Shown in pieces: positions 3,001 to 27,889 of a stretch of 64,000 nucleotides of DNA. Location of the stretch: the NCBI GenBank assembly GCA_003024785.1, contig PUQB01000299.1:149597-213596 (forward strand), given 5' to 3'. The notes under the pieces were generated by a model. That model was not told the DNA's origin. It did not search any database and was given only the letters and a program-made list of their open reading frames with translations. A program made the position numbers and the translations under genes. The stretch is from Selaginella tamariscina (Eukaryota; Streptophyta; Lycopodiopsida; Selaginellales; Selaginellaceae). Each line of letters starts with the position of its first letter. Positions within the stretch are counted from its first letter, which is position 1.

Positions 3001-3497
3001 TGCAGCACAGGAAAGGTATCGTCAGCAGTACGATAAGCACGGGATGTAGAGTATCAGGTTGGGGACATGGTATTGTTGAGTACCAAAACCTGAAGGTTCC
3101 AACAACTCTTTAAGAAGTTTCTATCGCACTACATAGGCCCATACAAGGTGGTGAAGAGTAGGGAAAGTGGCTTATGGGTTAGATCTTCCTCCAGAGTTGG
3201 GAACAATACACAATGTGTTTCATGTCAATTTGCTCGAGCCATTCCACAAGGATGAGAAACATCCACATAGATATCATAGTTTACGTCCGCCTCCAGAGTT
3301 AGTTGGTGAGGAGAAAGAATTTGAAGTTGAGGCGATATTAAAGGGGAAACATTCATGGACGGCGAAAACGTAAACGTGAATATCTTGTTAAGTGGAAAGG
3401 GTACCCGGCATGCGAGTCGACATGGGAACCATTGGAGAATCTGCAGAACGCGATGGAGTTAGTGAATGAGTTTGAGGCGAGGTCTCAAACTGATTAA
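1..3497 (+). pseudogene. Ty3/gypsy chromovirus pol remnant (copy 1), 5' end outside window
   Basis: Remnant of the polyprotein of an LTR retrotransposon, which copies RNA into DNA and integrates it. Domains in order: aspartic protease (DTGA motif near 160-172), reverse transcriptase with the YIDD catalytic box near 1190-1202, RNase H (ECDASDFAIGG near 1627-1660), integrase zinc-binding and core parts (about 2240-2900), and a C-terminal chromodomain (VKWKGYP near 3385-3406, stop TAA at 3495-3497). The chromodomain assigns it to the chromoviruses. The frame is broken many times, mostly by one-base losses relative to copy 2, for example near 715, 866, 1020 and 2735. A host gene is excluded by the pol order and by the LTR that follows. 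Gag and the 5' LTR lie left of the window. Confidence 0.93.
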
Positions 3498-3870
3498 GAA
3501 ATAAAGTTATTTCTTATTAACCTAGGGGCCGACAGACAACCTTAACTAGAGGCCTCCAATATAAATTCTAGTTAACTTAAAGAAATTAACTAACTTGTTG
3601 TCTGTGTCGGGTGACAGACTTTGCAGACGTGCAAAAGGTCTCCAATGACTTCTTGTCGCAGGTGGTGCCTCCGGCAGCTGAGTTCTGCTCAGTGAACGAC
3701 GGTTCTGAAGTACTTGGCTTCGCGTAATGCAAGGGGGGTAATAAAACTTGTGAACTTTTTGCTGACTCCGCATAGAGTGATTAGTTAGTTTTCAGTTAAT
3801 TTTTCCTAACCTATCTAGTCTTGGAGTTAGACGTCAACGAGGACGTTGACATTTCCAAAGGCGGGGAGTG
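3498..3870 (+). other. Retrotransposon 3' untranslated segment with polypurine tract
   Basis: Non-coding stretch between the pol stop and the 3' LTR. It is nearly identical to the equivalent stretch of copy 2 (32,489-32,868). It ends in the purine-rich run AAAGGCGGGGAG directly before the LTR, the expected position of the plus-strand priming tract. Confidence 0.8.
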
Positions 3871-4839
3871 TGTCATAGTTTTTACTATGACTCGACCCTT
3901 TACTTTGGGGTTTGACTGTTGTTACCTACCGAGTTGTGTGACGAACCCTAGATGTAGTAGGAAACAGGCCCGTTTAGTGCACTTGGGTATCTAGTGATGG
4001 TCCGGCCGGGTGTCATTAGGTATTTGCAGGAAACTCTAGGCGAAGCTAGAACTTACCTTCTAGAAACTCTCCCCCGGTTTGACGTTCCAGTTAGGGTTTT
4101 GCAAAGTATAGCTTGTCAAAATAAGGGTTAGGGACACCCTAGGGTTGACCTAACCCTAGGGTTGCCCTAACCCCACGCCCTAATACCCCCCCCTAGGGGT
4201 TAGGTTTAGGGTTAGGTTAGGACAACCATTTTCTCTAAGGGCTGGCATTTCCGTGCCAGCCCACTTACTCATTTAGGTAAACAGGGGGGGGGGTCCGTCA
4301 CATAAATAAGGTAGAGTATATGTAGTGAGGCTTCCTGGGTTCAAAAGAGAGCTCGTTAACCTCCTATCGGTGCAAGTTAAGCTTGTGTCGTCAAGGTGCA
4401 ACCCCGTTGTGCCGCCCAAACTTCCACAACAGGGGTACAACCCACCCTAGGGTTAACTATCCTTATCGATGGCAGGATCTTGCCTTTGAGATAGGGGCAC
4501 GTCACTTCCAAGGAGTTAGTCAGATTCCTTGGTCCAAAAACCTGCTCGCAAGCTAAAGCCATTGCCCGAGTTCACGTTCCGCAAAACTAGTGGTTGAGGC
4601 CTTGCTCCGGCCGCCTCAACCACACCAAGCTAGGAACGACACCTAAAGCTCGGCTAGTCCGTGTATCCTGATTCACAAGGTGAGTCTCGTTTGAGGACTT
4701 AGTCAGCTAGGGTTTGACTTCCTAAGGCTTGGATTCCTAATACGGGTTACTTTACCAGGTTCCTGGGGTTTCCAAGAGAGGGATTCCAGGGTTGGCACCT
4801 GGCAAGCCGCCTTTGTGGCACCAGGTAAAAACTCTGACA
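3871..4839 (+). repeat. 3' LTR of chromovirus copy 1
   Basis: It begins TGTCATAGTTTTTACTATGA right after the polypurine tract and ends CTCTGACA, so it has the TG...CA ends of an LTR. It aligns along its length with the two LTRs of copy 2 (26,606-27,561 and 32,869-33,810). It holds telomere-like CCCTAA/TTAGGG-rich stretches near 4130-4220. Length is 969 bp. Short open frames inside it are LTR sequence, not genes. Confidence 0.9.
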
Positions 4840-5870: not shown

Positions 5871-5947
5871 TCAAAGACTATAGTTGTAGATAGTGTAAAA
5901 CTAAGGTAAATATGTAGGTTACCTTAGTAAGTGTATGTAATTAAGGT

Positions 5948-5975
5948 ATATGCACGTTGTAACTAAAGTGGGCAT
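5948..5975 (-). repeat. Left terminal inverted repeat of element 1
   Basis: It reads ATATGCACGTTGTAAC then TAAAGTGGGCAT on the plus strand. The reverse complement matches 20,735-20,764 (one added T and a C/T difference) and 36,958-36,985. Confidence 0.6.
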
Positions 5976-6239
5976 GATACGTGAAAATGGAATATAAAAT
6001 AAATTACTAATTAATACTTAAGTTTTAATTATTAATTAATCATTTAATTAATATGTAATTAAGCCTTAAATATTAATTAATTAATTAATTAATCCTTCAA
6101 TAACCTTACTTAGTAAGGAATATTCCTAAAATATCTTAGAATATTCATATTATCTAAAAATAGTTTACAATAATGAAGAAATACTATCAAACATAATACA
6201 AATAAATCATTTTCTTATCAACATATTAATTTTTTATAA

Positions 6240-7396
6240 ATAATTTCTTTCTATCATACAAAGAAATCTTTTCATTTTGTCTAAATCATCACTCTCCGGA
6301 TTAATCAAATCATTTTGGTCAATATCTTGATGTTGTTGCCACCACTTAACACTCTCACGAATGCAATTGGGAGTTGCCATCCTTGTTAATACATAAGATG
6401 TGATAAGAAGGTCTGCATAAAGGCTCATCTAAAAACTGACGTTCCTTAAGAATAATATTATAAAGCGCCCGGTTGCTATCCTTCAATATCACGAGAAAGA
6501 AAAGCTTCAGGAAATGTATGATACGGTGGATACTGCTCACAAAATTTTCGAGATTCTTCTTTCTGAGGCACGTATCCAAGTAGTTCACTAGCTCATCCAT
6601 GATATCATATCAGAATATGGATCGAAAGTGATTGGATGAATACAAGCAATGTTTTGGTTGAGCATAGCCTTCTGAGGAGAGTCGTCTACTACTAACATCT
6701 GTGGGTTCTTCATTATCCTAAGCGACTGATCTCCCCATGAGTCCCAATTATTCTTTCATTCTTGAAGAAGTACGGCTTGCTTTCCTTTCTTATATTGTGA
6801 AATTCGGGAGGTTTATAACATATTCGCTGGTCAAAAATCCAATCTTTACGAATCACCTCTTCTGCAACACTACAATGTTTCTTAAGTAAAATTCAACAGC
6901 GGTGTTAAGTTATGAATCTGCATGCATGACCAAATCCCCACAAGCGCACCCATCTCCTTAAGCTTTTGAAAGAGACGATCCAACCCTGGACGAAAAATAA
7001 TATCATATCGAAATTTACCATGACAAGGAATGAAATCTCCTTGTTTGATTTCTGTTTTTCTATCCTCGGGCCTTTGTCGATGAAGCAGAACACCATTGAC
7101 ATCCAACAACACAATATGGCCATGAGTAACGTGAGATAGCGTTGCCTCTTGAATACTTTGCAAATCACTTTTTGCTCCCTTTCACATTTATCCGTTGCCA
7201 CTATCTCGTTGCCTATCCCTTCATCATTTAATTGTACATCATCCTTACAAGATTCAGATATTGCATGCGCTGAAGAAATTGATTTCGGAATTGAAGCCAA
7301 TAAAAATGATGATGAAGTGGCCCCCATGGTAACGATGTTTTGAGCTGCATTATTATCCATTTCCTGCATGAACTCTGTCATTCTGACATGTGGCAC
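6240..7396 (-). CDS. FCP1/NIF-like phosphatase-domain protein (HAD fold), probably decayed
   Basis: The strand encodes a domain resembling the FCP1/SCP (NLI-interacting factor) phosphatases, HAD enzymes that act on phosphoserine in proteins such as the RNA polymerase II tail. Seen: HIVLLDVNGVLLH (HAD motif I position, about 7090-7110), then FRPGLDRLFQKLKEMGALVG and WSCMQIHNLTPLL (about 6910-7000), then MLVVDDSPQKAMLNQN (motif III/IV position, about 6660-6705). Motif I reads DVNGV where active enzymes have DxDGT/V, so the second aspartate is replaced by N and activity is doubtful. The frame must shift near 7150 and again near 6890. An acidic, serine-rich lead of about 80 residues precedes the domain. 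The start chosen is the Met at 7396. It lies 255 bp downstream of the methyltransferase-like gene on the same strand. The same gene recurs in element 2 at 35.6-36.7 kb. Confidence 0.6.
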
Positions 7397-7650
7397 AAGA
7401 AATTGTCGCCAAACCCCTCTCTTACCTCATGGCAATGCTGAAAATCCATGTTCTCAATTATTTCATTACATCTGCAAAATGATAATTAGCTGACCTTAAA
7501 ATTATCAAGGTATTATTTACCTTGTTAATGTGTGACCCATGTTTGAACTAAAAGCTTCATTAATCCTTGAGAATTTATTTTCTGTACAAATATAAAAGAA
7601 ATATACAAAATGCCTTATGTTACACTCATTTACAACTATTCATCACTCTA

Positions 7651-9290
7651 TCAATTCATTATCAATTCTTCTTCGCTATTACCTTCTGAATGAGGCGAAG
7701 AAGGTCTAAGCCGCTTGTGAGATGGTTCAAGATCTTCTGCATCTTCTATTGATGTTTCCATGGGTCCTGGAGTGTGCGAATGTTCTGTACTCCTCGAGAT
7801 AACTTCCGGTCTAATATCTGATTGATGTTCGTTCTCAGACTCCGAGATTGAACCAGATTCACCTTCAGAGCTATCGCACTTATCTGGAGGGAACTTTCTC
7901 AAATACGCCTTTATGGAATCGTTGGGGTACTCAGTTGAGACCCAATCTATCCACTTGTTCAGGTCCTCAACCATGGTCTTATCCTTCTCAACGGCAAACA
8001 CACATGTATGCCGAAGGTAACACTCCTTCAAGACGGACCCCCTAGTGCAGTAGTCAAAAACCCACGCATCACTGTGAGGACCCTGATCAAGTTGACGATG
8101 CTCCGTGCCGCTTGACTTGTAATGTTTGGATAACGTACATTGCCGAATACGTCACTCATACCTATCGGTGTATCGGATGGACGTTCAGGGCCGTTGGAGT
8201 GCAAACAGATGCATGGCCAGTCATTTGGAAGCTTGAAATTGTTTGGCGCATTCCTAACAACCAAGTGAACAACAGTATCAATGCACTTGGGATTAGCATC
8301 GTTCATATAAAATCCTGTCCAACGATGTCTATTCTTCTTGGCGAAGGCGAAGGCAAAAGTATCGGTGACATGAGCAAGAATCAAGAAATAAATACCTGAA
8401 AAAGTAGGTATCAATGAAGAGCGCAAGCATGAATTCAATAATAAATACCTTCTATGTATATGCTTGCACGGCTAAGTTTCTCCACCAGATCCTCTAGTGC
8501 CCTATCTGTCGAAAGATTTTTTGACACCCGCCGATCCATCACGAACAATTGAAACGGTTTCCTACAAGCAGTGATGTTACCCCATAAAGACTCCGAATCT
8601 AACAACAAACATCTGTAGGGCTTGTCGTGATTCGTAGCATCCTCCTTTATAAGGTTCAATTCGGTTCTCCGCTGCTGAAGGACTGCCATAAGAGAAGGCG
8701 TCATCCCAATGTTCTCCTTTTTGGCGTTGGCGTGCAATAGATTCTTGCCTAGATCTTCCGATTGGTTCACCCATTCGACAAGCATATCATCGTTCGTCAC
8801 ATGCAAGTATTTGCTAACCTCTTCATATGTTGAAGTCGAGGTCCAACCCAGTTTGTGCAAGTGTATTCCCAACCACTCCTTGAAATGCCTGACCGTCTTT
8901 CAACTCCATTGCCTTGAGATGAAAAGGAGAGGTTGGATGCTGTTATTAATTTGTAGTTTGCCATCGATCACCAAATCAACCAAGACTTCCATCTCCTCCA
9001 TCGTTGTTCCATTTAAAGGCTTCAACCATGTGAGCTTGAAATCGTTGTCTACATCCTTTGTAGATTGAACAGACTTAGCCTCGGCGTCTTACTGGGTTTC
9101 TTTGCAGACTTTTCTGAGGGCTCCCCTTCACTTGTCTGCTTCTTCTTCAGTGTTCCTTTTGAAAAGGATTCCATAATCCCAACCATTTGGCAAAGATCCT
9201 ATCTTCTGGGCAAGAAATCAACATCATCAGAAATGATGTTTCCTTCCCGCCCACCTGGGCAAAATCAACTGCTGCAATTTCTTCAACTCT
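7651..9290 (-). CDS. DNA-methyltransferase-like region (3' exons of the ParB-like gene), likely inactive
   Basis: Downstream part of one leftward gene. In order: a KKKQTSEGEPSEKSAKK basic stretch (about 9120-9160), LGWTSTSTYEEVSKYLHVTN (about 8800-8860), KPYRCLLLDSESLWGN (about 8580-8630), a 53-bp intron at 8396-8448 that splices in frame, then the second half to NLIRVLTVMRGFLTTALGG (about 8040-8110) and HTCVFAVEKDKTMVEDLNKW (about 7945-8010), and an acidic tail ending at 7651. The order (DPPW-like box, beta-rich middle, then a GxGxT-like glycine loop followed by VEKD) resembles beta-group DNA amino-methyltransferases. The DPPW box reads DSES and the loop reads LTTALGG, so catalysis looks lost. 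This is inference from motif layout; no close family member is recognised. One or two frameshifts lie between 9180 and 8880. Confidence 0.45.
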
Positions 9291-9351
9291 CTGAGGAAAA
9301 AGACAGATTAATATACCGGCGAGATAAATCCCGCCCAAACAATTTGCTTAC

Positions 9352-10757
9352 CCGGTATTCCGCAGATTGTGTATTCCCTGCGGTAGCTCTTTGTGGTCGC
9401 TCAAGAGATTCCCACACGGCTCGCGTGTGTTTAAACTTCTCCCATATTTTTGCTGTTGTAGTGGTTGGTGTCGGCAGCGTCCCATTCCGCCGATAACTTA
9501 TGGTACTGCTCGATTGTGAGATTCGGCTTAGCTAAAAACGCCGATCTTTTTGTCAGCTTCTCACGGGTATGCTCGGAAAGTTTTGTTGCCATCGTTCCCT
9601 TTGTTGTGTTCTTCGAGAAGTCGTTGGGCTGCCGTTTGTGTGCTGGCCACTAATGATGTAGTACTTGATAGATCTTTTATTCTCCGTCTGAATCTTCATG
9701 AGTTGTTCTGGTGTTGTGATCCAGACTTTGTCAGCACCCTTCCTTCTTTCATAGTAATGGACACAAAACAGCATTATGTGGAACGGTATAGAATTGTCGT
9801 CCTTCATCTTCTCCATGAGCTCAGCTACACGTTCCTGGTTGAGTGGCCTGTAATTGAAGTTTGGGTGACGCTGCAATATTTAACCCTACAAGGATAAATC
9901 TTATCATCCAACATCATTTCCTTGTGACTTATTACAGCATGAGATGCCACAGGTGCAGCTGACAAACGATTGATGATTTTCTTTTGCGATCCGAATCAAC
10001 ATGTGTTGATCCCGACTGCAGCTGTTCTAGTGTTCTCGGCACACTCCTCAGCTCCCGAAGCTTCCTAAGCAAATTGAACGTGATCTGTAGAGAACCTGAG
10101 ACCGAGCCACCTTCTCAATCTCCCTTATGATGTCGTGTGTTCTTCTTCAATGTTAAGAGGGAGATTGCTCCACTTGCTGATTTTCTGTATTGTGAAACAA
10201 TATCTCCTGACAATACACCTACTCGATGAGTCTGAAGATCTTCGAAGTAGACATCCAGATGGATCCCCTCCATAGATGGGCTTTCGTTGAGTTGAAGAAG
10301 AACTCCAAGGTCAACATCATTAGTGAACACGTGAACATCATTATCCACAAGTCGACAAAACACCCGAGATTAATGTTGTAACTGACGACCTCTGGATCCG
10401 AGAACGTGACATCGGATGGAACAAATATCTGTCGAGCATCGTCCAATCTGGGTTTGCAGCCTGCTTTTGGGTGCTTGACTAGCGAATCTACTTTTCCATT
10501 GTTTTGCTTGTCCATGAGATGTGACAGAGGTTAATTTGACAGCAACCATGGTTGCTCCAATGCGCTTCCCATTTATCTTAAAATATGGCCAAGTTGATTC
10601 CAGAATCCCCTGCCCATCTCTTCTCCTGCTCTTTGTTCTTTAATGTCACTTCAATTCCACATCTGAATACAAAAATGATTAGTTCAAGTATCCCGAGTAT
10701 AACAGATTTTATTTTAATTCTTACCCAAATTTGACGACGACTCCATACTAATGACTC
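9352..10757 (-). CDS. ParB-like N-terminal region of the same leftward gene (5' exons), frameshifted
   Basis: Upstream part of the leftward gene. Visible blocks are GKVDSLVKHPKAGCKPRLDD (about 10,430-10,500), VFTNDVDLGVLLQLNESPS (about 10,280-10,340), and NFNYRPLNQERVAELMEKMK (about 9795-9865), followed by IKYYIISGQHT (about 9635-9670). The last pair matches the layout of a ParB-like domain (a Rx-LN-E--ELM helix, then Y-I-SGQH), which binds or cuts DNA or hydrolyses CTP in bacterial relatives. A 61-bp intron at 9291-9351 (GTAAGC...CTCAG) joins it to the methyltransferase-like part. A start near 10,757 with a first intron (about 10,670-10,735) fits, but the frame shifts at least three times. 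The inverted copy at 22.99-24.43 kb keeps the same blocks. Confidence 0.45.
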
Positions 10758-10887
10758 GATCTCCTTATTTGATCAAATCGTCCTTCTGCAAAATAATACA
10801 CTATAAATATAAATTATATAAAAACGCACACACACTTGTAAAACCGAATATACAAAAATATACACAGAGAGAAGTAGACGTAATTAA

Positions 10888-10974
10888 CTGTCCGAAGCTC
10901 ACATTTGTGCTAGTGCAAAAGAAAGATAACATTTCGTTTTAGAACCACCACAAATGTGAGCTCTGGACAGTTTT
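10888..10974. repeat. 87-bp foldback: inverted arms of about 24 bp
   Basis: Left arm AACTGTCCGAAGCTCACATT (continuing TGTG) and right arm CACAAATGTGAGCTCTGGAC (continuing AGTT) are inverse complements apart from two bases, around a loop of about 39 bases. The same hairpin is kept in element 2 at 22,687-22,772. It lies between the leftward gene start and palindrome array A. Confidence 0.8.
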
Positions 10975-11084
10975 ACATAGATTCTAGCTTTTACTCGAAA
11001 TATTATGATAAGATGATAAAGTAAATAAATGAGATATGCAACTTATATATACTAATACACTATATATTCACATGGAAGGTGCGG

Positions 11085-12540
11085 CGGGTTAATCTCGCCA
11101 CCCTTCAATGCCTCCTGAAAGAGTGGGCGGGATTAATCTCGCCACCTTTCTGGAGGCCTTGAACGGGAGTGCGGAATTAATCTTGCCACCCTTCTCGGTC
11201 TCAGAGAGAACTGGGCAGGATTTATTTCTCACACCCCTTCAGTGACTCCAGAAAGGAGGCGGGATTAATCTCGCCCACCATGTAAGGGATGGTTAAATGA
11301 ATCTCGCCACCCTTCCCAGTCCCCTCCATTGGTATGTTGTAAACCTTCTACGTCTCAGACAGAAACGTTTGGGATGGTCCAACTCACCAATGGAGGAAAA
11401 AGGGAAGGGTGGGGAGATTCATTTCTCCAACAGGCATTGAAGACTCGGCGGGATTAATCCCGCCGCCCAGGGCCTTCACTCGATCCTATGAGGCGGGATT
11501 AATCCCGCCGGACGCCAATTCCTTGCGCGGAATCGGGCGGGATTAATCCCGCCGCCTAGGCCCTTCAGGCAGGCCAATGGCGGCGGGATAAATCCCGCCC
11601 GATTCTGCGCAGGGCATGCGTACGCGGCGGGATTAATCCCGCCCACCATGTAAGGATGGTGAAATTAATCCCACCACCCTTCTCGGTTCCCTCCATTGGT
11701 ATTTTGTAAACCTTCTCCGTCTCAGACAGAGTTAGGCGTGATTGATTCAACATACCAATGGGGTAATGAAGGTTCGGAGATTAATCTCGCCACCGGGTAA
11801 TGAAGGTTCGGAGGCTAATCCCGCCGCCCTCTCGTAAATCATGCGCTCACACATATATATTGGCTGCGGCATTTTTGAAACAGGGATGGGTGGGGGCGGA
11901 TTAATCCCGCCGCCCAGGGAATTCACGCAGGACATGAACGGCGGGATTAATCCCGCCGCCCTCCGCGAAGGGCATGAGCGTGGGGCCGGATTAATCCCGG
12001 CGTTCATGTCCTGCGTGAATTCCCTGGGCGGTGGGATTATCCCGCCGCTGTACGACAAACCGAAGAGCGGCGGGATTAATCATCGCCGCCCATGGCCTGC
12101 GTGAGGGGCCTCGGCGGCGGGAATTAATCCCGCCGCCCATTCCCTGTAAATGCCCTGTGCGGAATCCGGCGGGATTAATCCCGCCCATTAGAACCTTCAC
12201 ACAGGCCATTGCCGGCGAGATAAATCCCGCCGCATTCCGCGCAGGGCATGGATGAGTGGCGGGATTAATCCCGCCGCCGAGGCCCCTCACGCAGGCCATG
12301 GGCGGCCGGGATTAATCCCGCCGCTCTTCGGTTTGTCGTACAGCGGCGGGATTAATCCCGCCGCCCATAGCCCTGTGTGAAGGGCCTCAGCGGCGGGATT
12401 AATCCCGCCGCTCACCCATGCCTGAAGGGCCTCGGCGGCGGGATTAATCCCGCCGCCATGGCCCCAACTATATAGCGGCGGGATTAATCCCGCCGCCGAG
12501 GCTATAAACCTATAGCGGCGGGATTAATCCCGCCGCTCGA
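11085..12540. repeat. Palindrome array A: about 20 units of GGCGGGATTAATCCCGCC
   Basis: The 18-mer is its own reverse complement. Units recur every 35-60 bp, degenerate from 11,085 to about 11,830 and near-perfect from about 11,900 to 12,535. The spacers are themselves inverse copies of one another: CTGTACGACAAACCGAAGAG at 12,042-12,063 against CTCTTCGGTTTGTCGTACAG near 12,324-12,343, and GAATTCACGCAGGACATGAA near 11,919 against its complement near 12,003. The whole can fold at several scales. Open frames across it (GGINPA and AGLIPP repeats) are by-products of the repeat. Confidence 0.95.
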
Positions 12541-13188
12541 GGGGCTTAGCGAATAAAAACACACACATATATATATGTGTGTGTGTATATATATGTATGT
12601 ATGTATGTATGTATAGGAGTGTACGTGTGTGTGCAAGAGATAGATAAATAAATAAACTTATACAGTACTGGTACACCTAATATATGTGTGTACATAGGTA
12701 TATATATGTGTGTATATGTATATCGTGTGTATGCGTGTGAGCGAAACAAATAAAATCATACAGATAAACAAACACACACACACACATATATATATACACA
12801 GGAGTGTGCGTGTGTGTGCGAAAGATAAAACTAATAAATAAATAAAATTATACAGATAAACACACACATATATATGTGTGTATATAGATATATAATCTAT
12901 AGAGAAAGAGAGAGAGTCTGTGAATATATAAGCATATATATAAACTAGTGTTGTATGTATGTATATATGTATATAGGTATTATATATGTGTATATGTATA
13001 TTGTGTGTATGCGTGTGTGAGCGAAACAAATAAAATCATACAGATAAACAAACACACACACACACATATATGTATGTGTGTATATAGATATATAAATATG
13101 AATATATAAGCATATATAAACTAGTTGTATATATTTGTTATATGCATTGATATATTATATATATATATATATATATTTGTGTTTATGT

Positions 13189-13234
<46 letters not shown>

Positions 13235-13309
13235 GCAGTGCGCGTGTGTGTGGGAGAGATAGATCAATAAAAAAAAATTTACAGATACTGGTACACATAA
13301 TATATATAT

Positions 13310-13357
<48 letters not shown>

Positions 13358-13640
13358 GCAAGATCAATAAAAAAAATTTACAGATACTGGTACACATAAT
13401 ATATGTATGTATATATGTATATAGGTATATATATATATATGTGTATATGTATATCGTGTGTATGCGTGTGTGAGCGAAACAAATAAAATCATACAGATAA
13501 ACAAACACAACCCACACACACATATACATACACAGGAGTGTGCGTGTGTGTGCGAGAGATAAAACTAATAAATAAAATTATACGCACACTCCTATACATA
13601 TATACATACATACACACACACACACACACAGATCTCACCT
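12541..13640. repeat. Microsatellite block with higher-order tandem units
   Basis: (TA)n, (GT)n and (GTAT)n runs. A longer unit containing GCGAAACAAATAAAATCATA then CAGATAAACAAACACACA recurs near 12,741, 13,021 and 13,475. A unit with TTTACAGATACTGGTACACA recurs near 12,656, 13,278 and 13,376. No coding content is seen. Confidence 0.9.
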
Positions 13641-14016
13641 GTGTGCACAGCCGCCGCCGATTTCACAGCCGCCGCCTCTTGAAACCCTAAGAATATACCT
13701 AAACCCTAAAGGAATTAAATATATATATCAACCCTAATAGAATATTCCTTCTGAGAATATACTTAAACCCTAAAAAGAATAAAATATAGATTCGCCCTAA
13801 ACGAATATTCTTTCATTATATTATTAGCGCGTGCGTGTGTGTGGGTGTATCACATACACCTCAAAAATATAAATCATGCAGGGATTTAACATGTGTGTGT
13901 CCATGAGAGTGTTAAAGTTTCATGTGTATCAATACATACATACACATTGCATATATTAATACACATAATATATACATACACACGTGTATACACACAGACA
14001 TACACACATATTACAT

Positions 14017-14044
14017 GGGTTTAGGGTTTAGGGTTTAGGGTTTT
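14017..14044 (+). repeat. Interstitial telomere-type repeat (TTTAGGG)n
   Basis: GGGTTTAGGGTTTAGGGTTT continuing AGGGTTTT, about four units of the plant telomere motif, inside the repeat block. Too short and internal to be a chromosome end. Confidence 0.9.
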
Positions 14045-14501
14045 GGATTTAGGATGGATCATGCATGGTGTGTATGTATGAGAGAAGAGAGAGTGTTGAA
14101 AAATTATTTTTGTACACATTGCATATATTAGTACACATATATACTTACACATATTATACACAGATATACATACATAGTATATGAGAGAAGAGAGACAGTA
14201 CATATTAATATGGATCATGCATGGTGTGTATTATACACACAGACATACATACATATTAGTACATAATATTAGAGAGACCGAGTACATATTATAGATCATG
14301 CATGGTGTGTATGTTTGAGAGAAGAGAGACAGTACATATTAACATGGATCATGCATGGTGTGTATGTATGAGAGAAGACAGAAAGTACACATATATACAT
14401 ATAGATACACATATATACATACAGTACACATATATACATGCACACGTGTATACACACAGACATACATACATATTACATGAGTAAATTCATTGTGTTACAT
14501 A

Positions 14502-14531
14502 TTAGGGTTTAGGGTTTAGGGTTTAGGGTTT
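14502..14531 (+). repeat. Second interstitial telomere-type repeat
   Basis: TTAGGGTTTAGGGTTTAGGG continuing TTTAGGGTTT, four units, 485 bp from the first island and in the same orientation. Confidence 0.9.
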
Positions 14532-14790
14532 GCTCCCAACAAGCTTAATATAAATATTACACATGTAAATTCAATGTGTTACATACAGTCACACAGATTG
14601 AGTACATATATCATACATGCGTTGAACATGATGTTTTCAATAAAGAAGCATATTTCTTCAGGGTTGTGCATGTGTGTGCATATGTGTTTTTGTAAGTTCT
14701 TGTAATGCGTGTGTAAATTTATGATTGTGTTTATATATGTGTGCAAAACAAACATCGAATAATTAAGAAAATAAAATTAATAAACACACT

Positions 14791-15480
14791 AGGAACATAT
14801 TTTAAATTATACATAATAATATATGATTTTATCTAATATATAGCCATATATAGTTTTAATAATATATATTAATTTAATATTGATAAAAAGGTTTAACATT
14901 GAAATATTCTTGAAATAATAAGAAATTAATTGAGAAAATCCCATTAATATATACAAATGTAAATTAAGTACTCAAATAATTAACTAAATTAATTATCATA
15001 ATCATGTTTAATATTGGAATATTCTTGGAATAATAAGAAAATAATAAAGAATATCCCATTAATATAAAGAAGATTAATTACTCAAGTAATTAAGGAAATG
15101 ATATTAATATATTATTATTAAAACTATATATGACTATATATTAGATAAAATGATTATTATGTATAATTTAAAATATGTTCATAGTGTGTATTAATTTAAT
15201 ATTGATAATAAGGTTTAACACATGAATATTCTTGAAATAATAACAAATTAATTGAGAAAATCCCATTAATATATACAAATGTAGAATAATTACTGCAATA
15301 ATTAAGAACAAGACTAATTTAATTATGATAATCAGGTTTAATATTAGAATATTCTTCAAATATTAATAAAATATTAAAGAATATCCCATTGATACTAGGA
15401 AATGAAAACTAAATACTCGAGTAATTAAGAAAATAATAATAATAAACAGACTATGAATATATTTTAAATGATACATAATA
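14791..15480. repeat. AT-rich repeats: 80-bp inverted arms and a roughly 120-bp tandem unit
   Basis: Arm 14,791-14,870 (ACATATTTTAAATTATACAT...) is the inverse complement of about 15,105-15,183. Between and beyond them, a unit with TATTCTTGAAATAATAAGAA and ATCCCATTAATATA recurs near 14,905, 15,025, 15,220 and 15,350. No gene is seen. Confidence 0.8.
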
Positions 15481-15762
15481 ATATATCAATTTATTTATTG
15501 TATAAGTATATATTTATATATATATATATAATATAAATATACTTGAATACTAAGAATGTAGAATATAGTCTAAAATTTCGTAATATTAAACAGCTTGAAT
15601 CACTTGAATAACATTAAATGCAATTTTAAAATACTCATTGGAACTGGAGAGTATATATGTCAGAGTGTCGGATATTTGTGTCAACTCATCTTAAATTTTA
15701 TTTTCTGTTTTTTTAAAAAATTTGAATTTCTGACATATGTATTGTCGGTCTGACATGTAAAT

Positions 15763-15949
15763 TTGAAAATGCATTTAATTTCCCACTCAAATTCAGATCT
15801 GGTTCTTTCTCCGGCAAGGGTTTCTTCATTTCTGTATTTTTCACTCTTTAGATCTTCTTTTTTCTTCATAGTGATCATCTCAGGAGCGAGATTAAATTGG
15901 GTGCTATTCTTTATAGGAAAGCACGGCGCCTTCAGTGCTGTTTACAAGT
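15763..15949 (+). other. Possible 5' leader exon of the DUF7869 gene
   Basis: The AT-rich region switches here to balanced, codon-like sequence with a CT-rich lead and ends at a strong splice donor (ACAA|GTAAGT near 15,949). The next good acceptor is ATGTGCAG at 17,121-17,128, just before the DUF7869 reading frame. If used, the intron would enclose palindrome array B. The frames do not join cleanly, so this would be untranslated. It rests on splice-site strength only. Confidence 0.25.
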
Positions 15950-16112
15950 AAGTATTATAAACAAATTTAAAAATACTTATTAAGATTCACTCTCTTACAT
16001 TCTCTCTTAAAATTACAATTTAGGGGTTTAGAAATGCATTAGGATTATAATATATTCCGTTAGGGATTTATCACGTTTAAATATCCTTTTAACTTAATAT
16101 TCTAGGTTAACC

Positions 16113-16983
16113 GGGGCGGCGGGATTAATCCGGCCATTTCTTTTTCGCCTCTTTGAAGAAGTGGCGGGATTAATCCCGCCACCATCTCCCGGGCAATGCT
16201 TCTCCGCCACTGAAAAAGAGTGGCGGGATTAATCCCGTCGATAACCTTCTCAACTGATGAAGAGTTACCAGAATTTATTAGAAAGAGTTGTCGGCGGGAT
16301 TAATCCCGCCAACCATTTTAGGAGGCAGGGAAGGGGTGGCGGGATTAATCTCGCCACCACTTCCCTGTTTTAAAGATTTGGGGACAGGATTTATCCCGAG
16401 ATCTCTTTGAAATCATAGTTTTGGAGAGAGTTATGTGCGGGTTTAATCCCGCCACCCATTCCCCGTCGTAAGAATTGTGGGCGGGATTAATCCCGCCTTG
16501 GACTCCCTCCGACAAGGAAGAGCCGGCGGGATTAATCCCGCCGCCTCTTCCTCCGACGAGGAAGGGAGTCCGGCGGGATTAATCCCGCCGACTCTCTCCG
16601 GCGAGGATGAGTCGGCGGGATTAATCCCGCCGGACTCCCTTCCTCGTCGGAGAGAGTCGGCGGGATTAATCCCGCCGGACTCCCCCGAGGAGGAAGAGGC
16701 GGCGGGATTAATCCCGCCGGCTCTTCCTTGTCGGAGGGAGTCCAAGGCGGGATTAATCCCGCCGACTCTCCGAAGGGGTTGAGTCGGCGGCGGGATTAAT
16801 CCCGCCGGACTCCCCCGAAGGAAGAGGCGGCGGGATTAATCCCGCCGGCTCTTCCTTGTCGGAGGGAGTCCAAGGCGGGATTAATCCCGCCGACTCTCTC
16901 CGAAGGGGTTGAGTCGGCGGCGGGATTAATCCCGCCGACCGTTCCTCGTCGGAGGGATTCGTGGGCGGGATTAATCCCGCCCA
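16113..16983. repeat. Palindrome array B: about 18 units of GGCGGGATTAATCCCGCC
   Basis: Same 18-mer as array A; units from about 16,470 on are nearly all perfect. Spacing in that part is about 40-47 bp. Spacers alternate as inverse copies (GGACTCCCTTCCTCGTCGGA against TCCGACGAGGAAGGGAGTCC; GACTCTCTCCG against CGGAGAGAGTC). Spacer sequences differ from those in array A, so the palindrome is conserved and the spacers are not. The array ends 150 bp before the DUF7869 reading frame. Confidence 0.95.
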
Positions 16984-17134
16984 TCAGTTGTATTAATCAA
17001 ACATGAGATATTATCTCTAAACATAATTATGTATTATTGCATATGCATATTATTAAGTAACCGTAATTCAGATTTCTTAAAATATTGCATAAACAGATAT
17101 CATAAATAATACAATTATTTATGTGCAGGACAAT

Positions 17135-20100
17135 ATGTTTAATACTGGAGATAAAGTATGTCTTCTTCGGAACAACGAGATAGTTGGCACTGGAACTGTG
17201 GAAGTTCGAGATAATAATGCATCATGTCACAATATTTCCCAAGGATCTTGTGTGTACGTATGGGTGAACACCATTTACAAGCATGTTGAGGTTCTGGGAA
17301 TGGAATTTGAGGAGGGTTCTCCTGTATTGTGGAATTTGGATGAAGTCAAGGCTGACACAAATATGCAGAGTCACAAACAAATAGTAGCACGAGTTTACCA
17401 GATGATGGCTTGCCTGCTGTAATGGATGAGGTGATTCTCTTTCTTCGTGAGATTGAAGTCGGAAGAGGCATCATCACAGCTATAAATCCAATGGAAGCAG
17501 TGTCAGAAGAGAAACTAGGGTCCGACTTCGTGGGTGTAGTTGTGACAGAGGTTTCACCTAATGGCACATTGTATCCTGGATCCCTCGTGAGGTGGCGAAC
17601 ATCTGAATTAAGACGGCAAGATGGTTCAACATATTCTGGGTTGGATTTCAATAATAACAACCCGGAAGAACAACTCATATTTGAAGAGGTTCCTTGCATT
17701 GGTCCTATTGTAAGAAAAAGGCGATTCATGGGTTGTAGATCTTCCCCTGCAAGTTTCAGCAAGAGGGTAAAGATGGATCCTACATCTTCCGAAAGTGTTA
17801 CGAGCATTTCCACGATTGACTGTTGCAAGAAGAAGTGTTGTCAGATGGCAGACCGGAATGAAATTACCCAATGTAGACATGTCTTTCGTATGCTCACCCA
17901 AAAGCAAAGGCATGAGTTTGTATATGCTGCACTAACTGGGTGTATTGATGGAATGGCCTCGGACACAGGTTATCAGAGTACATCCATGGTATTTAATAAG
18001 GTGGCCATCTGCTTCAAAGCTTGGTACAGTATATACGGGATCCCAAAGACCACGTTCTACCGTCGGAGGGATGAGTGGCTAGATGGAGCGCGAACCTCAG
18101 TTCATGGGAACACTGGCTTGGTCAAAACCCGCTCTCACATCATGGCAGCCATAGAGATACTCAAGGCTTTTGTGGAAGCAAATGCAGACAGGATGCCTCA
18201 CAAATGCCGAACCACAAATGCAGGGGTCAGGGAAAATCTCAAGGTTTTACCTTCAATCTACACTCAATTGAAACTGTGTGAACATGTGAACAAGTGCCTC
18301 AGTTTGATGGGGCTCCAAGCAATCTGCACTGGTACCTTCAACAACATATGGAATACTCATTTTAAGGATGTGGAGATTGCAAAACACTCTAGCTTTTCTA
18401 AGTGTGACACTTGTACATCATTGAAGGCTGCAGAGGCTTGTGCAAAAACCTTGGTGGAGATCACTACCATTCAAAGGAAGATGGAGGCCCACATGATTGC
18501 ACAACAAACTTGTCGGTCTCAGTACTATGCACACCGCATGCTTTCTGTGTCACGCCCATCAGAGTACCTGTGCTTGATCCATGACAAGATGGATCATTCA
18601 AAGACCAGCATTCCAAAGCTCTTTGCAACACCAAAGTGCCTTGGAAATGTCATGAAACTTCCGATTTCTTTAACAGGTGTGCTAACACATGGACACGGTT
18701 GTGAGTCATATGGACACTTTTCACTTCCACATTGGTCTAGCGACTCCAATTTCACTATTGGGTCGTTAGCCATGTGTTTCAGAAACCTTGAAGCCCACTC
18801 ACAGACAAGTCCTATCAGTGATCTCAAAGTGAAGAAACAACACCTTCAACCTTTACATAATGCTCTCATGAACACGTCTGCACTTGAGGCTACTTGGGAA
18901 TATGAGAGGCATTGTCAGCAACCTGCACAAAAAACAGATGGCCCTGTTGAGAGTTCAGGTTCAGTGGAGGGATCTAGCTCAAATAGTGTACATGTGTCCT
19001 CAACATCAAATAAGCTTCCTCGTCATTTGCTTTTACAGATGGATAATTGTGCAGGCGAGAACAAAAATAGGTAAATCATTTTACTTAAGGGTTTCTCAAG
19101 CTCATACTTACTTTTATTTTCTAGATATGTGCTAGCATACTTGTCAATGCTTGTTGCCAAAGGTGTGTTTGAAACAATCACGCTCAGTTTCCTTATGGTT
19201 GGTCACACTCATGAAGATATTGATGCGTTCTTCAGCAAGGTCTCCAACTCTACAAAAAGGACAAGTGCACTTACCTTACCGCATATGATGAATCTTTTTG
19301 AAAATTGCATCTCCAAAAAAAGTTGTGCTTTGCTTGTGACTGAGGTGCCAGACTTCAAAAAATTTCTCAAGGAGTATATAAAAGAAGGGAGTGATTCTTT
19401 AGTTGGTCACCTTGTGCCGCTACAATTCTTTTTCTCCATACGAGATGGTATACCTATTATGCAGTACAAGTTACGGCCATCAGAGCAGGAGTGGTTACCG
19501 AAAGAGGGCTTAATGCTCTTCAAAAGTGGAGAGGATGGAAAGCCACTTCTCCCAGAAGGACAACCAGACCCTATTCCATTGAGTGCCCAGCTCAAGGAAC
19601 AAGAGGTTATTATTGATGGCATCAAAAAATATGTGGCATGGGTTCAAAAATCGATGCCAAAGAATTCTGATAAGGCAACTGGTTACTCAGAACTATATAA
19701 GCATGTGGTCAACTATTGGGAGACTGTTGTTCGAGAGTTGGAAGGGCCTACTGTCACAAGTACAGAATTGCAACACCCTTTCTGGCCTAAAACAAGGTGG
19801 CGAGAGGAGATTGAAATGACATCACTGAGCACAGACGACATAGAAGCCAGTAGTGATGTGGAAGTGCAAACCCCACACTTTGTTGGACAAAGGAACCAAA
19901 AACCTAAAGCATACTTTGATTGCTGCAAGGATCTTCAAAAACTAATGATGGTTCTCATTACTCCAGATGCGTCATATAATCAGCCTATTTGGATGGGTCA
20001 AATTATCGACACACCTGAAGTAATCACAAAAAATAGTATTGTTAAGGTTGCATGGTTCAAACCACAAAAAAGGCGACACGAGAAGGAGAGCGAAAGATAT

Positions 20101-20253
20101 AATGGATGCCTAGAGAAAACATGGTCTCCCAATCAAAAAGACCCAGCATGTTTTATAAATGTTAAATCCATTCGATATGGGTGGATGTCAAGAAGCGTTG
20201 ATAAAGTCACGATTAACAAAACTGCAAGGGAATGTATGTTTTCTGAAGCTTAA
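17135..20253 (+). CDS. DUF7869-family protein, candidate DDE-type transposase of element 1
   Basis: Two exons joined by a 54-bp intron at 19,071-19,124 that splices NKN-R/YVLAYL in frame; about 1,025 residues. The N-terminal part (residues 1-200) has two beta-rich modules (GDKVCLLRNNEIVGTGTVEV; LGSDFVGVVVTEV) like promoter-distal domains of plant transposases. The middle has Cys pairs (CDTCTSL; CCKKKCC). The core has LIHDKMDHSKTSIPKL (about 18,575-18,620), LLLQMDNCAGENKNR (about 19,030-19,070) and LMVGHTHEDIDAFF (about 19,190-19,235). These spaced acidic residues suggest an RNase H/DDE fold, an inference. A one-base frameshift near 17,400 (VYQ / DDGLPAVMDEV) interrupts an otherwise long open frame. 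The start chosen is the Met 7 bases after the acceptor at 17,128. Array B is upstream, and the right TIR lies 480 bp past the stop. Confidence 0.75.
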
Positions 20254-20734
20254 AGCAATTACAAAATTATAAAATATCATATATTTAATATTCATAATTA
20301 TTATAAACTCTTTAATAATAGTACCAAATTGTATACTTAACTATATAAATTTAAAAAATGATATGGAAGATTGACTATATTATTATAGGATTTTATATAT
20401 ATATTATTACTACTACAAATTTTTAATTAATAATGTTATATTTAAATATTAATATTTTAATAACAACATCAATATTTATATAATGTACCTCTTATGCTCT
20501 TCCTTAATTGTTATATTAGGCAATATATTATATAATTTAATACATTCTACTTTTATAATGTTATTAATTTTTGTTCAATGAATGCTATAATTTATTAAAG
20601 GGTAGAATACAAAATAGAATATTCTAAAGAATATTCTCTTTTCAAACATATATTCTAAAGAATATTCCTTTAATATTAGAAAATGCTAATTAAATAGCTA
20701 AAATTGCTAATTATTAGGAAATGGGACTATAGCC
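20254..20734. other. AT-rich subterminal region with GAATATTC palindromes
   Basis: No gene. Paired AGAATATTCTAAAGAATATT motifs occur near 20,618-20,670. Similar GGAATATTCC and AGAATATTC motifs lie near the opposite end at 6117-6150. Subterminal repeats of this sort are where transposases of other families bind; here that is inference. Confidence 0.5.
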
Positions 20735-20764
20735 ATGCCCATTTTAGTTTACAACGTGCATGTA
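20735..20764 (+). repeat. Right terminal inverted repeat of element 1
   Basis: ATGCCCATTTTAGTTTACAA then CGTGCATGTA; the inverse complement of 5948-5975. Outside it the similarity stops. Confidence 0.6.
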
Positions 20765-20849
20765 TATATGAAGGTTAATCCTATAATTAGAATAATCTAT
20801 TATGGGTTTATAGGACTATTAAGGTATTCTTAAGGTTGAATAGGTATTT

Positions 20850-22194: not shown

Positions 22195-22580
22195 AGGTGG
22201 CGGGATTAATCCCACTGACCCTTTCATGCCTGGTGGGAAGGGGTGGTGGGATTAATCCTACCACCCTTTATGTCTCAAAGAATGTGGGGCAAGATTAATC
22301 CTGCCCACCACCATTCTCCATATGAGAAAAGTTGTGGGGCGGGATTAATCCTATCAATTAAGTATGAAAGGGGTGGTGGGATTAATCTCACCCACAACTC
22401 TCTGATATGGATAAGGGTGGTGGTAGGATTAAGCCCACACACTTCTCTTTGAGATGGAGAAGGGTGGCAAGATTAATCCCGTCACCCCTTCCCACCAGGC
22501 ATAAAGGGTTGACGGGATTAATCCTGCCACCCTTCTCCATCTTAAAGAGAAGTGGGCGGGATTAATCCTGCCCACACTCT
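22195..22580. repeat. Palindrome array C (decayed)
   Basis: About ten units related to GGCGGGATTAATCCCGCC with many C-to-T and G-to-A type changes (for example GGTGGGATTAATCCTACCAC, GGCGGGATTAATCCTGCCC). It occupies the same place relative to the gene block as array A. Confidence 0.85.
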
Positions 22581-22686
22581 ATGTGAATGTACATGTGTAT
22601 TAGTATATATAAGTTCTTTATCTCCTTTAATTTACTTCTATAATCTTATCATAATATTTTGAGTAAAAGCTAATAAACCATTATAA

Positions 22687-22772
22687 AATTGTTCAAAGCT
22701 TACATTTGTGGTGGTTCTAAAACTAAATGATAGCAATTTTTTGCACTATCACAAATGTGAGCTTTGGACACT
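22687..22772. repeat. Foldback hairpin, second copy
   Basis: Arms GTTCAAAGCTTACATTTGTG and CACAAATGTGAGCTTTGGAC. It is the diverged counterpart, inverted, of 10,888-10,974; loop length and both arms are kept. Confidence 0.8.
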
Positions 22773-22989
22773 TAATTCCGTCCACTTCTCTATGAGACAA
22801 AGAAGGGTGTATGTGAATTTACTAGTGTATTAATATACATAAGCATATGTTTGTCTGTATATTATAATTTCTTGCCATTTAAATAGCCTAACACTTCAAA
22901 GAAAAATATGTATAGACTCTGTTATATGAATTATATTCATAGTGTATTATTGTGCAGAAAGACGGATTGATCTAACAAGAAGATTCAGT

Positions 22990-24431
22990 CATTAGTATAG
23001 AGCTATCATCAAATTCTGGGTAAGAATTAATATAAAACATGTTATACTCAGATATGTGTTTGAAGAAGTAATCATTTTTGTATTCAGATGTGGAATTGAG
23101 GTGACATTGAAGATAAGAGAAGGAGATGAGATGGGCAAGGGGATTCTAGAATCAACTTGGCCATTTTTAAATAAATGGGAAGCACATTGGATCAACTATG
23201 GTTGCTGTCAAACTAACCTCTGTCACATCGCATGGGCAAGCAAAACAATGTAAACTAGATTCATTAATCAACCACCCGAGGGCATGGTGCGAACCAAGAT
23301 TGGACGATGCTCGAAATATATACCTTATTCCATCCAATATCACGTTTTCGGATCTGGAGGATGCAAGATACAACAAGAACCTCGGGTGGTCCTGTCAGCT
23401 TGTGGATTATGACGTTAAAGTGTTTACTAATGATGTCGATCGTGGAGTTCTTCTTCAACTAAACAAAAGCCCATCTATAAAGGGGATTAGATTAGATGTC
23501 TACTTCAAGGATCTCAATACTCATTGAGTAGGTGTATTTATAACAGATATTACTTCACAATACAAAACATCCACAAGTGAAGCAATCGTCCCTTTCTTAT
23601 TGAAAAAGAACACAATGACATCATTAGGGACATTAAGAGGGTGGTTCAGTCCCAGGTTCTTTACAGATCACATTCAATTTGCTTAGGAATCTTTAGAAGT
23701 TGGAAGAGTGTGCCAAGAACATTAGAACAGCTGCAGTTGGGGCTCACACATGTTGATTCAAACCGTAGAAAAAATCATATATGGTTTTGTCAGCACCTGT
23801 GGCATCCTATGCTACAACAAGCCACAAGGAAATGATGTTGAATGATAGGATTTACGAGTGTAGGGATAAGTATTGCAGCGTTAACCCCAACTTCAATTAC
23901 ATGCCACTCAACCAGGAAGGTATAGCTGAGCTGATGGAGAAGATGAAGGACGACAATTCTTACACCCTTCCACATAATGTGTTTTGTGCCCATACTATAA
24001 AAGAAAGAAAAGCATTGAGATAGTGTGGGTGACAACACCAGAACAAATTACAAAGATTCAAACGAAAAATAAAAAATCAATCAGGTATTACATTATTAGC
24101 AGCCAACACACGATAATGGCAACCCAATGATCTTAATGAACACAATAAAGGAATGATGGTAATAAAACTTTCTAAACATACTCGTGAGAAGCTAAACAAA
24201 AAATCGGCATTTTTAACTAAGCTGAATCTCACAACCAAGCAGTACCATCGATGGAATGGGACACTTCCGACACCAATCACTACAACAACAAAATATGGGA
24301 GAAGTTCAAATACACGCAATCCATGTGGGAAATCTTGGGCAACCACAAAGAACTACTATAGGGAGAAAATAAAGTGCAGAATACCGAGTAAGTAAATTGT
24401 CTTGGCGAGATTTATCTTGCCAATATATTAA
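22990..24431 (+). pseudogene. ParB-like gene copy of element 2, 5' part
   Basis: Recognisable blocks parallel to the leftward gene of element 1: PRLDDARNIYLIPSNITFSD then VFTNDVDRGVLLQLNKSPS (about 23,290-23,475), and NFNYMPLNQEGIAELMEKMK (about 23,890-23,950). The SGQHT motif reads SSQHT near 24,090. Several in-frame stops (for example at 23,525) show decay. The splice donor GAGTAAGTAAAT near 24,388 corresponds to the intron in element 1, and the MULE landed inside this intron. Confidence 0.75.
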
Positions 24432-26455: not shown

Positions 26456-26464
26456 ATATATTAA

Positions 26465-26600
26465 TTTGTATCTTTTAAATCTTCAGAGAGCTGAAGAAAT
26501 TACAACAATTGATTTTGCCCATGTGGGCGGGAAGGAAACATCCTTTTTGATGATATTGATTTCTTACCCCGAGGACAAGGTCTTTGCCAAATGGGTGGGG
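26465..26600 (+). pseudogene. Short exon piece of the ParB/methyltransferase-like gene between the two insertions
   Basis: Encodes the block with ITTIDFAHVGGKETSFLMIL, parallel to 9165-9290 of element 1 (AAVDFAQVGGKETSFLMMLI). It is flanked by the MULE on the left and the chromovirus on the right, and continues after 33,810. Confidence 0.8.
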
Positions 26601-26605
26601 ATTAT

Positions 26606-27561
26606 TATCATAGTTTTTACTATGACTCGACCCTTTACTTTGAGGTTTGACTGTTGTTACTTACTGAGTTGTGTGACGAACCCTAGATGTAGTAGGAAAC
26701 AAGCCCATTTAGTGCACTTAAATATCTAGTGATGGGTGTCATTAGGTATTTACAAGAAACTTTAGGCGAAGCTAGAACTTACCTTCTAGAAACTCTCCCC
26801 CGGTTTGACATTCTATGTTAAGGTTCTTCGCAAAGTATAGCTTATCAAAATAAGGGTTAGGGACACCCCTAAGGTTGACCTAACCCTAGGGTTTCCCTAA
26901 ACCCCCCTAGGGGTTAGGTTTACGGTTAGGTTAGGACAACTATTTTCTCTAGGGGCTAGCATTTCCATGCCAGCCCACTTACTCACTTAGGTAAACATGG
27001 GCGGGGGATTCGTCACATAAATAAGGTAGAGTATATGTAGTGAGGCTTCCTGGGTTCAAAAGAGAGCTCGTTAACCTCCTACTAGTGCAAGCTAAGCTTG
27101 TGTCGTTAAGGTGCAACCCTCCGTTGTGCCGCCCAAACTTCCACACGACAGGGTACAACCCACCCTAGGGTTAGACTATCCTTATCGTTGGCAGGATCTT
27201 GCCTTTGAGATAGGGGCACGTCATTTCCAAGGAGTTAGTCAAATTTCTTGGTTCGAAAACCTGCTCGCAAGCTCAAAGGCATTGCCTGAGTTCATGTTTC
27301 GCAAAATTAATGGTTGAGGCCTTGCTTCGGCCGCCTCAACCACACCAAGCTAAGAACAACACCTAAAGCTCAGCTAGTCAGCATATCCTAATTCACAAGG
27401 TGAGTCTCGTTCGTGGACTTAGTCAACTAGGGGTTTGAGTTCCTAGGGCTTGGGTTCCTAATACGGGTTATTTTACCAGATTCCGTGGGGTTTCCAGAGA
27501 GGGGATTCCAGGGTTGGCACTTGGCAAGCCACCTTTGTGGCACCAGGTAAAAACTCTGATA
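26606..27561 (+). repeat. 5' LTR of chromovirus copy 2
   Basis: Starts TATCATAGTTTTTACTATGA (the expected TG is TA here) and ends CTCTGATA. It aligns with 32,869-33,810, with scattered substitutions and small indels in the CCCTAA-rich part. The two LTRs have therefore diverged since insertion. Confidence 0.92.
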
Positions 27562-27563
27562 AT

Positions 27564-27575
27564 TGGTATTGGAGC
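27564..27575 (+). other. Primer binding site (initiator Met tRNA)
   Basis: TGGTATTGGAGC begins two bases after the 5' LTR. The usual plant initiator-Met site is TGGTATCAGAGC, so it fits with two changes. Confidence 0.85.
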
Positions 27576-27889
27576 AAGTTCTCTGCGGTCAGTAGGACTG
27601 CCTTAAGTTGTAGGGTGTTTCAATGTTTAGATAACTTTAAATTCTTGATATACTCTATTGCTTTTGGTTGACATGTCTGTATTCTGCCCAGAGAGTTTGA
27701 TCCTGTGAGTTGTCAAACTTCGGAGAACACTTGCTCAGTGAGTCGGCGTGAGATTCTAGGTATGTCCGAAAGTTTTATACTAGTTTAAGCTGATGTGTAT
27801 GGGTGTACAACCTGTGCAGGGTGTTTCCAATTTCACATTGGGAATATTCTAAGCATATTCTCTGAGTGTTGACACTAGGGTTCAATACT

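Follow-up and report, generated by a model that had tools for sequence, protein, structure and literature searches.

Several described groups of transposons offer points of comparison for the element that we report here. Sola2 elements have AWWT target-site duplications and terminal inverted repeats (TIRs) of 12–21 bp, and carry Fanzor as an extra gene (PMC3627910); Physcomitrella Sola1 is entered in a review table (PMC9033089), and curated bivalve Sola1 elements have a mean length of 5,445 bp (PMC10294476). AcademX elements produce 3- or 4-bp duplications, and Academ is linked to an encoded helicase or nuclease (PMC10045372). In the VANDAL transposons of Arabidopsis, the protein VANC removes methylation and binds a tandem motif that lies upstream and in introns (PMC5735166). 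All of these papers are cited here from excerpts. The present element lies in a 64,000-nucleotide stretch of the Selaginella tamariscina genome (contig PUQB01000299.1 of assembly GCA_003024785.1, positions 149,597–213,596 of the forward strand), hereafter the window. It spans 14,812 bp, from 5950 to 20761 of the window, and carries a gene for a DUF7869 protein (gene T), two further genes (P and F) and, before each of its two gene blocks, an array of an 18-bp palindrome, the arrays being a new feature. We conclude that it is a TIR DNA transposon of new anatomy with a predicted DDE/D transposase. It is undescribed within the open-licence literature, including the excerpt available of a giant/plant transposon paper (PMC6431247).

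A first-pass annotation of the window had pointed to a sequence of about 28 bp, inverted at either limit of a 14.8-kb span that holds two divergent gene blocks. Both observations stand, and the ends can now be defined exactly. The left TIR (ATGCACGTTGTAACTAAAGTGGGCAT, 26 bp, plus strand) occupies 5950–5975 and the right TIR, which reads inward as ATGCACGTTGTAAACTAAAATGGGCAT (27 bp, minus strand), occupies 20735–20761. The 4-bp sequence GTAT precedes the left end at 5946–5949 and recurs identically after the right end at 20762–20765. The inverted ends of another copy, C663, agree at 24 of 26 positions. Two genes lie on the minus strand (6.2–10.7 kb) and one on the plus strand (17.1–20.25 kb), and the middle of the element (12560–16100) is AT-rich, contains a CA/TA microsatellite and varies among copies.

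The same ends recur throughout the assembly (300.7 Mb in 1391 contigs). A 201-base query for the left end scores at 40 places, the window included, with 96–100% identity; the matches begin at query bases 28–51, the element start being base 51 and the surplus a short chance match in the flank. A 261-base query for the right end likewise scores at 40 places, all 97–100% identical, and its matches, the window aside, stop at query bases 202–219, the element end being base 202. These are the best 40 of 958 (left) and the best 40 of 886 (right) first-look candidates and, since only 40 were scored for each end, the copy numbers are lower bounds. The 40 scored places for each end exclude a chance inverted repeat as the source of the ends. 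Of the scored left ends, 20 were inspected on both sides (the window, ten copies as 20-kb stretches and nine as end pieces) and C1129 on the left only (contig end); C1292 and C169, too near a contig end, were left out of the copy set.

Both ends are present, joined to other flanks, in 15 of these 20 copies, at a spacing of 13.3–15.0 kb. The other five comprise C541, in which roughly 1 kb at the left end is retained, C789, which is interrupted and whose right end is not seen in the stretch read, and C1084, C462 and C324, in which there is no right end within the stretch read. Identical 4-bp flanks border nine of the 15 two-ended copies: GTAT in the window and C603, ATTT in C1282 and C1026, ATAT in C663, TTAT in C611, C1239 and C1059, and GAAT in C1371. 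Under random re-pairing of left and right flanks, 1.5 matches are obtained on average and never more than 7 in 200,000 shuffles, compared with the 9 observed. All nine duplications fit NWWT, being AT-rich with T at the fourth base. Inverted ends and a target duplication of constant length, the hallmarks of a TIR DNA transposon, are thus found in independent copies, and each of the eight two-ended copies that were fetched whole contains the three gene regions. C852 and C549 (L012, L034) share an identical 100-bp right flank and have different left flanks, so that at least one of the two is not a simple insertion.

Uninterrupted counterparts of the insertion sites were sought by removing the element, retaining one copy of the 4-bp sequence and comparing nine such joined flank pairs with 361 kb of fetched DNA. 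Matches that span the junction are found in this comparison only for C663, whose joined flanks correspond to uninterrupted neighbouring repeat units (91% over 152 columns, 94% over 50), and for C611, whose joined flanks correspond to a nearby repeat (86% over 87 columns). A third case is C1239 (L040), whose target was itself a member of the family. The sequence to the right of C1239 aligns with the interior of other copies and, when its two flanks are joined with one TTAT, they agree by eye at 33 of 34 positions with the window sequence immediately before the start of T; the insertion point falls within the palindrome array that precedes gene T in the recipient copy, in which a further left end stands about 1.9 kb on. 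The counterparts of C663, C611 and C1239 are paralogous, not allelic, empty sites. The large mobile DNA transposon proposed from the window is therefore borne out by ends on other flanks, by target duplications and by uninterrupted counterparts; the transposon family is real and probably was recently active.

Gene T is read on the plus strand in two exons. Exon 1 (17135–19070) carries the first two putative catalytic Asp motifs, HDKMD and MDNCAGEN, and exon 2 (19125–20253) the third, HTHEDID, together with a C-terminal SH3/MazF-like barrel. The intron between them (19071–19124, 54 bp, AG/GT ... TAG/A) splits the DUF7869 domain, and its removal yields NKNRYVLA as in homologs; the window copy has one frame change near 17.35–17.42 kb. 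Predicted models of the homologs P0001 and P0084 have an RNase H-like core with the correct order of strands and helices and, among the families listed in the VIA comparison, all 50 of 50 structural neighbours of this core are transposases or retroviral integrases. Three acids are conserved across 46 homologs, D99 in 46, D265 in 45 and D305 in 45 (one gap), and fall at the canonical positions, an assignment based on secondary structure and not on superposition of coordinates. The suggestion from the first-pass annotation that the three motifs would suit a DDE-type transposase is upheld, both in the catalytic positions to which they correspond and in the RNase H-like DDE/D core of the homolog models. 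We conclude that the DUF7869 protein is most likely a DDE/D-type transposase in which the third acid is D (DDD).

The C-terminal barrel, modelled as residues 598–694 of P0001, resembles MazF/PemK and Tudor/SH3-like folds. A search of a viral fold library gives no match at E ≤ 0.001, its best rows being PemK-like barrels, and a PDB profile search with A1 gives no match. Named DUF7869 proteins are found in mosses and liverworts and also in molluscs, sea urchins and Chromera; no mention of DUF7869 was found in the open-licence literature. In other genomes the homologs P0099, P0121 and P0136 are fused to an OTU protease, a Ulp1 protease or a chromodomain, and such protease and chromodomain fusions are frequent in eukaryotic transposons. 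A diverged DUF7869 fragment (Ks, the synonymous divergence, 0.56 relative to the present family) lies about 6.4–7.1 kb into the stretch of C541 (L016; L015, first 10 kb), where it follows roughly 1 kb of left-end sequence of this family, and possibly represents a sister subfamily or a recombinant. Bacterial matches were confirmed in three of 68 matched stretches (L048–L050), on metagenome-bin contigs of 4.3–6.4 kb that are binned as cyanobacterium or Bacteroidetes; these genes are probably eukaryotic contamination.

Comparison with known superfamilies places T among the enzymes with an RNase H-like core. Its best structural neighbours are the Tc1/mariner transposases and the retroviral integrases, from which it differs in sharing only about 10% identity in the structural alignments and in possessing the MazF/SH3-like barrel; the mariner duplication, moreover, is TA, compared with 4 bp here. 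With E 0.056 and 13.7 bits, below the cut-off of 21, the N-terminal part of T matches Transposase_23 (TNP1/En/Spm), which is reminiscent of CACTA/En-Spm elements. The ends, however, are not CACTA, no CACTA transposase domain is matched, and the duplication of CACTA elements is 3 bp, not 4 bp. MULE target duplications are longer than 4 bp.

A further correspondence is with Sola, and we hold the chances to be even that the element is a large, gene-rich Sola member, in which case only its size, extra genes and arrays would be new. Sola transposases are DDD, and the third acid of T is likewise D. The 4-bp AT-rich duplications and short imperfect TIRs resemble those of Sola2, in which an extra gene, Fanzor, is also present (PMC3627910), and a moss occurrence is on record in the Physcomitrella entry (PMC9033089), the likeness being judged by description alone. 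The duplication pattern, on the other hand, is NWWT, not AWWT: the Sola2 pattern fits only three of the nine (ATTT twice and ATAT), the other six beginning with G or T. The bivalve Sola1 elements are far shorter (PMC10294476), and the P and F genes, the size and the palindrome arrays are absent from the excerpted Sola descriptions compared. No report of a Sola element combining DDD with cargo was found in the open-licence literature.

Membership of Academ, or of another known superfamily with 4-bp duplications, is very improbable. The 3- or 4-bp duplications of AcademX (PMC10045372) would accommodate it, but no helicase or nuclease domain is found in T, P or F, P having no recognised domain at all, and the 25 of 29 matched Pfam families listed for the 46 homologs include no transposase family besides DUF7869. 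Least probable of all is an integrated virus-like element, whether Polinton-like or a giant-virus fragment. Large size, several genes and inverted ends might suggest it, but none of the three was recognised as a viral gene, and both the 4-bp duplications and the dispersal of exact ends over 40 scored places resemble what is seen in transposons. We reject this origin, as 17 viral-contig stretches matched the DUF7869 pattern and none was confirmed as a relative.

The two minus-strand genes are less readily assigned. Gene F (approximately 6235–7381) is broken by frame changes in the window copy, a fragment of which still matches NIF with E 5e-5; the reading obtained from sister copies matches PF03031 with E 5e-12 (46.2 bits against a cut-off of 21.8). 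The FCP1-like character attributed to F in the first-pass annotation therefore holds at the level of the domain. It does not extend to motif I, which by eye is DVNGVL in the window, C603, C663 and C720, so that the DxDx pattern with both Asp residues is not found. NIF/FCP1 phosphatases use the second Asp of this motif and, since Asn replaces it in F, the protein may bind rather than dephosphorylate its target. A PDB search with F gives chance matches only (best E 0.077), and no report of FCP1/NIF together with a transposase was found in the open-licence literature.

Gene P (7651–10746) would encode a protein of about 976 amino acids in four exons, as inferred from the frames of sister copies and from splice sites; frame changes are again present in the window copy. 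No relative is found at E ≤ 0.001 with query residues 1–920, among candidates of 0.55–1.75 times the query length, from which intron-split predictions would escape. The label of ParB/methyltransferase-like gene first given to P is not sustained by domain searches: none is found in Pfam (bar an unrelated DUF658, E 0.083), NCBIfam or PADLOC, PHROGs is uninformative, and there is no PDB and no phage match. By eye, the stretch YYIISGQHTITAAQRLL (YYIISGQHT..AA) resembles a ParB-type motif and VFDYCTRGSV...AVEKD resembles methyltransferase motif I. Both the ParB and the methyltransferase readings of P are unproven.

Whether P and F belong functionally to the element can be judged from their divergence, for which an older copy in the window is also informative. 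This partial second copy is inverted (22440–36985, minus strand) and consists of the pieces 36985–33811, 26605–26457 and 24431–22440, with other repeats between them; it is 85% identical to the element over 5948–9177 and continues in the latter two pieces. Its left end, at 36958–36985, accounts for the third occurrence of the end sequence that had been placed at 36,958. The ratio of nonsynonymous to synonymous divergence (Ka/Ks) is 0.26–0.42 in all seven comparisons with Ks ≥ 0.1, namely T in C541, P in C789, C671, C655 and the second copy (0.26–0.37), and F in C541 and the second copy (0.38–0.42). Cells of fewer than 50 codons (T in the second copy, P in C541) were excluded. We conclude that T, P and F are under purifying selection between diverged copies.

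These values bear directly on the alternative that P and F are host genes, passively captured and without a role in the element, which we regard as distinctly unlikely. NIF phosphatases are common among host proteins, and the missing second Asp in motif I of F, the lack of a known relative of P and the weak constraint on F in low-divergence comparisons could all be read in this way. The constraint on both genes at Ks ≥ 0.1, however, and the constant position of their regions in all eight whole two-ended copies speak against it, and passive capture is rejected on the Ka/Ks of the diverged copies. The frame changes that occur in T, P and F of the window copy also require comment. In low-divergence copies coding indels are numerous relative to substitutions (21 compared with 7 in C1282, 10 with 14 in C720, 10 with 37 in C603 and 31 with 37 in the window). 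This load resembles that of an unpolished long-read assembly, and many of the frame changes are probably assembly errors.

The window contains 26 exact sites of the palindrome GGCGGGATTAATCCCGCC, a number that rises to 41 when up to two mismatches are allowed; none is expected. Array 1 (11126–12534) has 19 such sites, the nearest 380 bp upstream of the start of gene P, and array 2 (16118–16981) has 18, the last 154 bp upstream of the start of gene T. A single near-palindrome with two mismatches (9318–9335) lies in the second inferred intron of gene P (about 9291–9351), and three degraded palindromes (22199–22572) stand beside the second copy. In C663, 21 of 29 consecutive intervals between palindromes measure 38–51 bp. 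When occurrences are aligned on one half-site (63 in the window, 71 in C663), the other half is 89–100% conserved and the spacer columns only 0.29–0.71, from which it follows that the palindrome has been held while the spacers have drifted. Counted as exact sites only, the palindrome is present 4–27 times in nine of ten long copies and is absent from the truncated C541. In the eight two-ended long copies every exact site lies inside the element and, among nine right-end pieces, exact sites past the end occur only in C1239, whose five belong to its recipient copy. Given their positions before the starts of T and P, the arrays are likely to be regulatory binding sites.

A different account would make the arrays sites for a host factor, such as an E2F-like protein with half-site CCCGCC, serving S-phase expression and not an element protein. 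GGCGGGA/TCCCGCC does resemble E2F half-sites, and the arrays are directly upstream of both gene blocks. We consider this account rather doubtful, as all 41 window sites fall within the element or next to the degraded second copy, the five that C1239 has past its right end are part of another family copy, and the palindromic pairing with near-constant spacing suggests a dedicated binder. The nearest described parallel is VANDAL, in which three-gene plant transposons carry tandem arrays of a short motif upstream of VANA and in introns; the arrays of the present element are similarly upstream, with one site in an intron, that of gene P. The VANDAL motif, YAGTATTAY, is not presented as a palindrome in the excerpt available (PMC5735166), in contrast to the 18-bp palindrome here.

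Taken as a whole, the element is in our judgement very probably an autonomous transposon, with T as its DDE/D transposase, P and F as functional parts and the arrays as putative protein-binding, control sites. T would recognise the 26-bp ends and join them to the two target strands at points staggered by 4 bp, giving rise to the 4-bp duplication, at target sites that would be AT-rich with T as the fourth base. The ends, duplications, uninterrupted counterparts, conserved acids and modelled fold are before us; the chemistry would be that expected of such an enzyme, and a cut-and-paste route is presumed over a replicative one. The purifying selection seen on P and F is that of functional parts and not of passive cargo, and both may act in transposition or its control. 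The protein that binds the arrays would be sequence-specific and probably dimeric, and would control the expression or chromatin state of the element, the likeliest binder being an element protein, P in the first place. By analogy, we tentatively raise the possibility that P plays a role like that of the VANC anti-silencing proteins of the Arabidopsis VANDAL elements. A fuller version is unlikely: that DUF7869 defines a separate superfamily, that P (ParB-like, with a degenerate methyltransferase-like part) would act on parS-like arrays against silencing, and that the altered FCP1-like protein would act on transcription.

A number of observations weigh against the autonomous transposon so described. 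Six of the 15 two-ended copies (C720, C852, C671, C655, C549 and C1281) lack an identical 4-bp duplication, and the uninterrupted counterpart of C663 sits within an AT-rich tandem repeat. None of the six copies compared, nor the window, is open through all three genes. The VIA rows are drawn solely from chains top-ranked by Foldseek, which by itself is not significant with either the full model (best E 0.084, Tn5) or the core (best E 0.15, a non-transposase). Several low-Ks values of Ka/Ks, which are noisy, are high: F in C611 has 1.96 (one synonymous and eight nonsynonymous changes), F in C603, C671, C655 and the window 0.53–0.67, P in the window copy 1.02, and T in C789 0.94 on 196 codons. 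Tandem arrays can homogenise without selection, although the spacers have not done so. Finally, the evidence on the element consists of sequence and predicted structures, and the binder of the palindromes is putative.

The neighbourhood of the element contains other repeats. Two copies of one, 91–94% identical, lie at 1–4792 and 29111–33776; they contain reverse-transcriptase-like open reading frame (ORF) text, FLVLPFGLCNAPATFCTMM, which we take to be a reverse transcriptase motif, and the repeat is probably a retrotransposon of the long terminal repeat type. The one at 29111–33776 lies inside the limits of the degraded second copy of the transposon. At 25339–26272, also between pieces of the second copy, are ORFs that by eye resemble a MULE/FAR1-type transposase with a zinc knuckle.

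The significance of the element is threefold. For DUF7869, a widespread domain of unknown function, a candidate role can now be proposed, that of the catalytic core of a transposase. The element itself is unusual among DNA transposons for its size, has several genes and maintains two accessory ones under selection, for one of which (P) no relative is found. The promoter-proximal palindrome arrays, lastly, make element-encoded control or anti-silencing open to testing outside the VANDAL elements of Arabidopsis.

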